From: Desulfobacca acetoxidans DSM 11109
GTDB taxonomy: Bacteria > Desulfobacterota > Desulfobaccia > Desulfobaccales > Desulfobaccaceae
Reading direction: 5' to 3'
DNA: 64,000 bases
NCBI RefSeq assembly: GCF_000195295.1
Contig: NC_015388.1
Coordinates: forward strand, 1,612,001 to 1,676,000
The notes beneath the pieces are model-generated. The model did no database searches, was not told where the DNA came from, and was given only the letters and a program-made list of their open reading frames with translations. Positions 22,982 through 24,987 of the stretch are shown one piece after another. The position numbers and the translations under genes were made by a program. Numbering within the stretch: the first letter of the stretch is position 1; every line of letters begins with the position of its first letter.

Positions 22982-24001
22982 TCACCCGTTTTTTACTGCT
23001 ATTACAAAGCTGGAATGTTCTCCCACCCGCCTGAGTTCGGGGCGGCTGCATCCCAAAGATTCCACCCAGGTCGCCACTTCGTGGTGTTTGTAGGCGCGGC
23101 CGCCTTGAGTGACCGCCAACATATGGAGGCCGAAAAACGCCGCGCTGGGTGGGGTATAACCGTCGTCGTCAAGAAAGAAGTCATGCACTGCCAGCCGTCC
23201 GCCGGGCACCAAAGCGGAGCAGGCTTTTCTGAGGATGGTCTGTGATTGGGTCTCTGTGTGGCTGTGCAGAATCTGTGAAATCCAAATGAAGTCATAGCCT
23301 GAACCGATGTCATCTTCCAGGAAGTTGCCGGCAATTGTTTGCACCCGGCTGGTTAAGCCATGCCGGACCAGGTTTTCCCGGGCGATGCTGATCGGGAGTG
23401 GCAGATCAAAAACCGTAGCCTTGAGTTGCGGGTATTGTTGGGCGAAAGCGATGGCATAGGAAGCTGGCCCGCCCCCCAAATCCAGCAGGTGTTTGATGTC
23501 TTTTAGATTGAGCTGCTCCAGGACCAGGGGGATGGTATCCCGAGCGACGGCGTGCATGCCCCAAATAAAGTCTTTGACTTCTTGTTCATGGGCCTCTGCG
23601 TGGGCCTCCACCCAACGGGCCGGATCGATCTTCGGATGATTGCCGGTGGCCACGACCGCCCCCAGGTCTGACCAGCCTTCCCAGGTATGATGCAGGTGTT
23701 TAAAAATTGCTCCCCGGTAATTTTCTCCCGCTGCTACCAAAAATTCCTGAGCCACGGGGGTGTTGTGGTAGGAGTTGTCCTTTTTGCTTAACAACCGCAA
23801 TGCAGTCAGGCCGTTGAGCAACATCTCCAGGGCCCTGGCATTCACCTGGAGGCGACTGGCTAAATCCTCGACAGTGGTTGGGATAGAGAGATGGCTAAAG
23901 ACGTCTAAATCGCAGGCCACCAAGAAAACCTTGGCAGCCTGAAAACCCCGAGACAGCTCCATCAATTGGGCGAAGCCGGATAGGTCACCGCTGGGCTTCA
24001 T
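22982..24001 (-). CDS. SAM-dependent O-methyltransferase (dimerisation-domain type)
   Basis: 339-residue methyltransferase of the class with an N-terminal winged-helix dimerisation domain (about residues 20-90: TVEDLASRLQVNARALEMLLNGL) and a C-terminal Rossmann domain. The SAM-binding motif is LLDLGGGPASYAIAFA, followed by ATVFDLP and a LHSHTETQSQ segment. The class methylates small aromatic or quinone-like hydroxyl groups; the substrate here is unknown. Start 24001 follows AAAGGAGACGCC; a longer frame to 24166 has no family resemblance. The ATG overlaps the stop of the tiny upstream ORF as ATGA, so both are probably made together. Confidence 0.88.
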   Translation of the reverse strand: MKPSGDLSGFAQLMELSRGFQAAKVFLVACDLDVFSHLSIPTTVEDLASRLQVNARALEMLLNGLTALRLLSKKDNSYHNTPVAQEFLVAAGENYRGAIFKHLHHTWEGWSDLGAVVATGNHPKIDPARWVEAHAEAHEQEVKDFIWGMHAVARDTIPLVLEQLNLKDIKHLLDLGGGPASYAIAFAQQYPQLKATVFDLPLPISIARENLVRHGLTSRVQTIAGNFLEDDIGSGYDFIWISQILHSHTETQSQTILRKACSALVPGGRLAVHDFFLDDDGYTPPSAAFFGLHMLAVTQGGRAYKHHEVATWVESLGCSRPELRRVGEHSSFVIAVKNG

Positions 24002-24156
24002 GGCGTCTCCTTTCCATTTTGATCTGATTGTTCCTGACGCGGCACGGCGCAGGAAGAACGGTTCAGTCAGGTTTTGATCCCAAACTTGGGCAGTATCCAG
24101 GCGTTTAAAACTACCCAGATGGCCAGAAAAACTACGAGAAAGGCAAGTATTTGCAT
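23998..24156 (-). CDS. Candidate small membrane selenoprotein (TGA read as Sec)
   Basis: ATG at 24156 opens 29 codons: one hydrophobic helix (about residues 3-23, LAFLVVFLAIWVVLNAW) and the tail LPKFGIKT. Codon 30 is TGA (24069-24067). The frame then stays open for 22 more codons (LNRSSCAVP at the start) to a second TGA that overlaps the methyltransferase ATG as ATGA. A stem-loop with bacterial-SECIS geometry follows the first TGA. Read through, the product is 52 residues with Sec30 and Cys36 on one face of the membrane. A weak AGAGG lies 9 bases before the start. If the TGA is a plain stop, it is a 29-residue membrane peptide instead. Function unknown; a redox role is only a guess. Confidence 0.55.
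24027..24059 (-). promoter_or_regulatory. Candidate bacterial SECIS stem-loop
   Basis: Downstream of the TGA at 24069-24067: 5' arm GTTCTTCCTG-CGC, loop CGTGCC, 3' arm GCG-T-CAGGAACAAT, with one C-C mismatch and one bulged T. The apical loop starts 20 nt after the TGA and has G at loop position 2; both agree with published bacterial SECIS consensus (16-37 nt; G in the first two loop positions). Folding was done by eye. Confidence 0.5.
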
Positions 24157-24204
24157 GGATGTCCAACCTCTTGACTTTCCAACGTTAGGCGCCGGAAGGC
24201 CTTA

Positions 24205-24987
24205 TCAGTTATCATAGGTGGCGTTGCGGTGGCTCCACCGCCGCAGAAACTGATAAAGACTTTCCTTGTATAGCAGCATTAGTAAGGCTGCCAACAGGAA
24301 TAATCCCAGGAGGGCCAAGAAAGTGATATAGTCGCCACGATAGACTTGAGCCCCTTGCAGGGAAAGCATCAGAGTGCCCGGCATGCGGCCGATGGTGACG
24401 ATAAGAAGAAAGACCCGGAGGGGCATTTTGCTCAGGCCCAGAATGAAGCAGAGGTAATCCTTCGGAAAGCCGGGTAACAGAAAGAGCAGAAAGGCAATGA
24501 GAGTGCCCTGTCTTTCGATGATAAAGTCAAATTTATCCAAGGTCGGTTTACTGACCAATTTTTCGATCAGGTGTATTTCCAACCACCGGCCTAATAAAAA
24601 GGCCAAAATAGAGCCGAGGGTGAGGCCTAAGGTAGAGTAGACAAATCCCATCGGACCGCCGAAAAGGAAGCCGCCTAAAAAACCCGTAGCCTCTCCGGGG
24701 ATGGGGGCAAATATAACCTGCAACGATTGGATTACGATAAAGACTACGGGGGCGGCGGGGCCGAAGGAGAGCAGCCAGTTGCGGATATTTTCTTTACAGG
24801 ACAGGAAATTGTAGCAGTTAGTCGCCCAGTTGCTGAGGGGGAGCCAAAATAGGTAGAGGGACAGGGCTGCAAGTGAAATAAGAACCAGGGCAGATAAGGA
24901 CCACGTCAGCCAGAGGCCGTTTTTGGGGGGTGGAAATTCAGACTGAGGCGACAAGATAAATCTCTCTTTATTGGAATCGGTTGTCAA
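24205..24987 (-). CDS. TVP38/TMEM64 (VTT-domain) membrane protein
   Basis: 260-residue inner-membrane protein with about six hydrophobic segments and the VTT/SNARE-associated core: FAPIPGEATGFLGGFLFG followed by GLTLGSILAFLLGRWL, and later FLLFLLPGFPKDYLCFILGL. Bacterial family members (DedA relatives) are linked to lipid scrambling or membrane homeostasis; no specific role can be read. The ATG overlaps the stop of the radical SAM gene (ATGA), and the tiny membrane ORF starts 48 bases downstream, so it belongs to the prmA operon. Confidence 0.88.
   Translation of the reverse strand: MTTDSNKERFILSPQSEFPPPKNGLWLTWSLSALVLISLAALSLYLFWLPLSNWATNCYNFLSCKENIRNWLLSFGPAAPVVFIVIQSLQVIFAPIPGEATGFLGGFLFGGPMGFVYSTLGLTLGSILAFLLGRWLEIHLIEKLVSKPTLDKFDFIIERQGTLIAFLLFLLPGFPKDYLCFILGLSKMPLRVFLLIVTIGRMPGTLMLSLQGAQVYRGDYITFLALLGLFLLAALLMLLYKESLYQFLRRWSHRNATYDN

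Follow-up and report, generated by a model that had tools for sequence, protein, structure and literature searches.

A UGA codon conserved in two phyla points to an uncatalogued family of small membrane selenoproteins

The window analysed here is a stretch of 64,000 nucleotides of Desulfobacca acetoxidans DSM 11109 (contig NC_015388.1, positions 1,612,001 to 1,676,000). Within it, a sequence-only reading had drawn attention to positions 23998-24156, described as a tiny membrane-protein ORF with an in-frame TGA, a SECIS-like hairpin and a stop codon that shares an ATGA with a methyltransferase start. All of these elements are present, but the reading gave no strand: the ORF lies on the minus strand, and reading 23998-24156 on the plus strand gives no such ORF. 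In D. acetoxidans the putative selenoprotein gene is flanked by a gene for a VTT-domain protein and a gene for an O-methyltransferase. The features of the locus are as follows.

24205..24987, minus strand: VTT-domain (DedA/TVP38-like) membrane protein, the next gene upstream, 48 nt gap
24167..24171, minus strand: possible weak ribosome-binding site of the selenoprotein, AGAGG, proposed from sequence
24001..24156, minus strand: coding sequence of the 52-residue putative selenoprotein, supported by family alignment A4; terminal stop TGA at 24000-23998
24085..24153, minus strand: predicted single membrane-spanning helix, residues 2-24 (AlphaFold2 on A4)
24067..24069, minus strand: Sec codon TGA, codon 30 (TGA in 138 of 141 family members, Cys in three)
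24049..24051, minus strand: codon of the second cysteine, Cys36, +6 from Sec (Cys conserved at +5/+6 in the family)
24031..24055, minus strand: bacterial SECIS-like hairpin, TTCCTGCGC-CGTGCC-GCG-T-CAGGAA (family-wide enrichment, covariation)
22982..24001, minus strand: O-methyltransferase, 339 aa, Dimerisation and Methyltransf_2 domains, a lineage-specific neighbour

The reading frame opens at ATG 24156-24154 and runs MQILAFLVVFLAIWVVLNAWILPKFGIKT-TGA-LNRSSCAVPRQEQSDQNGKETP-TGA; with the internal TGA translated as U, the product is MQILAFLVVFLAIWVVLNAWILPKFGIKTULNRSSCAVPRQEQSDQNGKETP. One membrane helix, a TGA at codon 30, 22 further sense codons and a cysteine (Cys36) six residues past the TGA had all been read correctly from the letters, as had the ATGA at 24001-23998, in which the methyltransferase ATG (24001-23999) overlaps the terminal TGA of the ORF. 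The methyltransferase has a Shine-Dalgarno sequence of its own (AAAGGAG, 24013-24007). It is a distant relative of BchU, scoring 96.8 bits against TIGR02716, far under the cut-off of 276.1. The upstream gene in locus L004 (member 2 of alignment A2) is akin to the VTT-domain gene of the window (62% identity). A search of Rfam near the locus returned nothing meaningful.

Relatives were collected by a six-frame search reading through stop codons, then with a profile of seven sequences (A1) and then with an alignment of 104 members (A4); the survey covered Desulfobacterota and Planctomycetota. In the read-through search, every sampled member of the same taxonomic family yielded relatives, with exactly one internal TGA each. 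About 140 of 395 Desulfobacterota genomes match profile A1 at E<1e-5 (140 matches listed), each match containing an internal TGA. Planctomycetota relatives were added by a scan of GTDB contigs, and 25 of 294 Planctomycetota genomes match alignment A4; a plasmid collection contained no relative. Altogether, 141 members were extracted from their loci. The codon at the Sec position is TGA in 138 of these and Cys in three, while TAA or TAG occurs in none. Stop-codon usage in the homologues, to which the sequence-only reading had pointed, differs between the two ends of the tail: stops at the Sec position are all TGA, whereas terminal stops are mixed (TGA 52, TAA 35 and TAG 31 in 118 members). If members are assumed to be independent, the probability that all 138 are TGA by chance is ~10^-49.

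The surrounding residues are conserved in both directions. Ahead of Sec, Pro at -7 and Gly at -4 are found in 100% of the 141 members, Trp at -16 and [Asn/Gln] at -12 in 95% each, and Thr at -1 in 93%; after Sec, Met or Leu occupies +1 in 84%, and a second Cys lies at +5 in 112 of 141 (79%) or at +6 in 17 of 141 (12%). The codons beyond the TGA, whose conservation the initial description had left as a matter for homologues, therefore keep this Cys in 129 of 141 members. The family signature is W-x2-L-[NQ]-x-[WYFV]-[IV]-L-P-[KR]-[LFM]-G-x2-T-U-[ML]-S-x-[SA]-C. Five of the 141 members lack a second Cys in the vicinity of Sec, and a strict Sec-Cys bond is therefore not universal.

Several members depart from the common arrangement. 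L105, L108, L155, L044, L077 and L118 either have no second Cys close to Sec or have it 12 residues off. In the sister-genus members L006-L008 the stretch from Sec to the following Cys is longer by four residues (U-LSGKTGAGS-C, against U-x4-C in most members), and their predicted apical loop is also placed differently. One member (L095, genome G248) has an extra residue ahead of Sec (IPSGU), which suggests that there are more divergent relatives beyond the motif used.

In the bacterial SECIS model (PMC13188914) a hairpin stands just 3' of the UGA, one of the first two positions of its apical loop is a G, and this loop lies ~16-37 nt from the UGA. At the locus, the six-base apical loop CGTGCC (24046-24041) begins 20 nt past the UGA and has G at loop position 2, as first described. 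Taken alone, this hairpin is unremarkable: its 64-nt fold has z = -0.90, and 35 of 200 shuffles fold equally well. The case therefore rests on comparison across the family. Over 118 members, mean z against GC-matched synonymous recodings is -1.28 for the 48 nt that follow the TGA (p = 7e-20), compared with -0.32 for the 48 nt before it (downstream-upstream difference, p = 9e-12). By the cut-offs chosen here, hairpins of at least 5 bp that carry G at loop position 1 or 2 and begin 14-37 nt past the UGA occur in 106 of the 118 members, against 50.8±5.4 expected from protein-preserving synonymous recodings; the SECIS-like hairpins of the family lie 14-26 nt downstream of the UGA. The commonest hairpin class has 21 non-redundant members, in every one of which the six innermost pairs form, as against 21-46% for slid pairings; classes were picked per sequence by best pairing, so that the paired percentage is partly circular and synonymous recoding is the independent test. 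Compensatory pairs are found in the same class, several pairs being changed on both sides (GC, TA and CG at +18:+32, for instance). The hairpin features of the family fit the bacterial SECIS model.

The window genome encodes the machinery for Sec insertion: selA (SelA, 517 bits), selB (SelB, 383.9 bits), selC (tRNA-Sec, 80.5 bits) and selD (SelD, 367 bits) were all found. The SelD gene (L181:1501-2418; C1:557612-558529) has an in-frame TGA inside the active-site motif GUAAK: SelD is thus a selenoprotein itself and, with SelA, SelB and tRNA-Sec also present, UGA is very probably read as Sec at other sites of this genome as well.

Homologues with Cys at the aligned position, one of the two outcomes anticipated for relatives, do exist. 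All three (L159, L160 and L166) belong to Planctomycetota (genomes G595, G652 and G581), where the matches sit on contigs no shorter than 3.6 Mb; the Desulfobacterota members included no Cys form. Neither tRNA-Sec (E<=1e-9) nor SelB (over the cut-off) was found in any of the three Cys-form genomes. By comparison, tRNA-Sec, SelB or both were found in all 36 TGA-form genomes checked (36/36 vs 0/3; Fisher p = 1.1e-4). These 36 comprise the window genome, nine Planctomycetota, five positive Desulfobacterota without a SelA match (tRNA-Sec in 5/5, SelB in 4/5) and a further 17 plus four Planctomycetota, the 17 having tRNA-Sec and the remaining four SelB. The presence of SelA was also considered as a correlate and set aside as uninformative, SelA being found in 355 of 395 genomes.

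The downstream gene differs among relatives. Overlap with a methyltransferase recurs in L006-L008, whereas a different gene follows in L003-L005 and in most other members. Co-translation with the O-methyltransferase, part of the original proposal, accordingly holds for D. acetoxidans and L006-L008 and fails as a general feature; the methyltransferase was rejected as a general functional partner, and the partnership is lineage-specific. That the TGA is an ordinary stop, the locus encoding a 29-residue membrane peptide and the next 66 nt merely coupling translation to the methyltransferase, has in its favour that nearly all TGA-ended genes do end there, that the ATGA overlap is real and that the window hairpin is weak when taken alone, but we give it almost no credence: 138 members lack TAA or TAG at the Sec codon even though their terminal stops vary, the tail (chiefly Cys +5/+6) is conserved across two phyla, the frame continues through a Cys codon in three genomes without Sec machinery, and in L003-L005 and the majority of other relatives the next gene downstream is of another kind.

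Comparison across genomes shows one UGA codon conserved in two phyla, with Cys in its place in genomes without Sec machinery. That the product of the locus is a selenoprotein is, by comparative genomics, close to certain; Sec insertion at residue 30, as originally suggested, is supported by the codon distribution at that position and by the family-wide enrichment of SECIS-like hairpins; the outcomes that the sequence-only reading had named as refuting it were each checked, and none was found. With somewhat less assurance, the locus very probably represents a genuine member of a widespread, uncatalogued bacterial family of ~50-residue single-pass membrane selenoproteins. The sequence-only reading had recognised no named family, and the 104 members tested against NCBIfam release 20 and Pfam-A were likewise left unassigned (best chance matches E = 0.0045 and 0.0085), none matching the SELENOK or SELENOS Pfam families at E<=0.01. 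A 2026 catalogue (PMC13188914) lists 119 families and subfamilies, of which none fits by motif or description, and no motif, name or description was found in the literature searched; novelty rests on the table of that 2026 review together with NCBIfam. On this basis we take the selenoprotein family to be new, its architecture being unlisted among the bacterial selenoproteins of PMC13188914 or NCBIfam. It shares with the selenoproteins of that catalogue a UGA with a SECIS immediately downstream, a Sec near a Cys and Cys homologues in genomes without Sec machinery, but none of the catalogued families is listed as a ~50-residue single-pass membrane protein with TU[ML]SxSC. NCBIfam models exist for TsoA (LULAxC), TsoB (UxxxxU) and UGSC; members of the family described here fail to match them.

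In the structure predicted by AlphaFold2 from A4, pLDDT is ~90 at residues 1-10 and 52-59 in the C-terminal tail, which is predicted to be disordered. Mean net charge is +1.7 in the 13 residues before Sec, compared with -0.3 at the N terminus: because the basic side is C-terminal, the Sec end should, by the positive-inside rule, be cytoplasmic. Neither sequence comparison (best E 0.11) nor fold comparison with the PDB gave a relative. The eukaryotic SELENOK and SELENOS, too, are small and span the membrane once, and they bear Sec in a cytoplasmic tail that is charged and disordered. In those proteins, however, a long tail precedes Sec, which stands near the C terminus, whereas here Sec lies a few residues past the helix, and the resemblance is one of architectural analogy only.

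Genes of sulfide and persulfide metabolism adjoin the family in some Planctomycetota loci. Persulfide dioxygenase-rhodanese (PDO-rhodanese), rhodanese, TauE or sulfide:quinone oxidoreductase (SQR) were located by tblastn at most 3.5 kb away in 10 of 32 Planctomycetota loci, as against 0 of 106 Desulfobacterota loci at the sensitivity used. (A family-wide link to rhodanese, drawn from upstream Pfam counts, was dropped, since by the tblastn count all loci with rhodanese/PDO neighbours belong to Planctomycetota.) For L051, L053-L055 and L058 the presence of rhodanese, metallo-beta-lactamase and TauE domains is borne out by Pfam, and L054 also has an SQR-like domain of the pyridine-nucleotide-disulfide oxidoreductase type; the rhodanese neighbours include one with YgaP-like helices. 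In the Cys-form loci L187 and L188 the gene order is TauE, PDO-rhodanese, small protein, SQR. PDO-rhodanese is present in one to three copies per genome where it occurs and was not found in five of the 16 genomes searched, so that by our estimate its adjacency in nine Planctomycetota genomes is very unlikely to be due to chance. One PDO-rhodanese gene (L201) was considered as a second selenoprotein and rejected, since translation shows its TGA to be a normal terminal stop.

Operons made up of TauE, PDO-rhodanese, the small Sec/Cys protein and SQR were observed in L053, L054, L058, L187 and L188. We regard these sets as a candidate operon for sulfide oxidation that includes one additional component not so far described. 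The sulfide detoxification operon of the cst type in S. aureus consists of CstA, CstB, SQR and TauE. The Planctomycetota set (PDO-rhodanese, rhodanese, TauE/SafE and SQR) resembles it, but differs in the tiny membrane Sec/Cys protein, which to our knowledge is no described part of cst-type operons.

Function can be proposed in outline. SelB and tRNA-Sec would insert Sec at residue 30; the helix would anchor the protein, its basic C-terminal side in the cytoplasm; and Sec, with the Cys 5-6 residues on, would form a reactive selenol/thiol pair at the membrane surface. In Planctomycetota such a pair would pass on or reduce the persulfide made by SQR, beside the persulfide dioxygenase-rhodanese. 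Given the sulfide/persulfide gene neighbourhood in Planctomycetota, we therefore favour, tentatively, a selenol/thiol redox relay that is tethered to the membrane and handles sulfane sulfur (persulfides); that the protein is a general thiol redox partner seems nearly as likely.

As such a partner, the protein would serve a membrane thiol/peroxide or disulfide reductase and be fed by thioredoxin, CcdA or TlpA, a reading that we also hold to be a serious possibility while stopping short of expecting it. No single set of genes surrounds the Desulfobacterota members, although ArsR regulators, thioredoxin, CcdA/TlpA and methyltransferases recur, and the thioredoxin, CcdA and TlpA-like neighbours of several lineages argue for this role; among genes farther away at the same loci, thiol families are absent from the families matched by at least two members. 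Sec with a nearby Cys suggests a selenenylsulfide, although the second Cys is not universal, and most known selenoproteins are thiol oxidoreductases (PMC13188914). A general reductase partner nevertheless finds it hard to explain why the Sec and Cys forms of Planctomycetota both adjoin PDO-rhodanese and SQR.

A role without redox chemistry, in which the protein binds metal or selenium/sulfur species at the membrane as a scavenger or transport accessory (to a TauE exporter or VTT protein), seems unlikely. Tiny single-pass proteins are often accessory subunits, a VTT-domain protein is encoded upstream in the window and in L004, and TauE occurs in L053, L054, L187 and L188; against this, no transporter partner is conserved across the family, and the residue is almost always Sec and otherwise Cys, which points to chemistry at that atom.

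The sulfane-sulfur relay can be extended to a broader and more doubtful proposal: that this almost Sec-obligate family may act as a perselenide/persulfide relay at the membrane surface, leading from SQR to persulfide-consuming enzymes, with an equivalent role in sulfur protection in sulfate reducers, and may be a bacterial architectural counterpart of SELENOK/SELENOS. Such a family would have gone unseen because its members are too short and lack common Cys homologues. Selenoprotein searches largely rely on Cys homologues or on long tails past the UGA; here Cys homologues are few and only ~20 residues follow the UGA, which is why the family was missed, and gene finders overlook the gene because its mid-gene "stop" codon is read as selenocysteine. 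Roughly one third of the sampled Desulfobacterota genomes carry the family nonetheless. For this phylum, which has a central place in the sulfur cycle, it would mean one more common selenoprotein, and it makes it possible to test directly whether selenium chemistry at the membrane is used in the handling of sulfide or persulfide. The family alignment provides gene callers with a concrete model, and further tiny selenoproteins are probably hidden in genomes already annotated.
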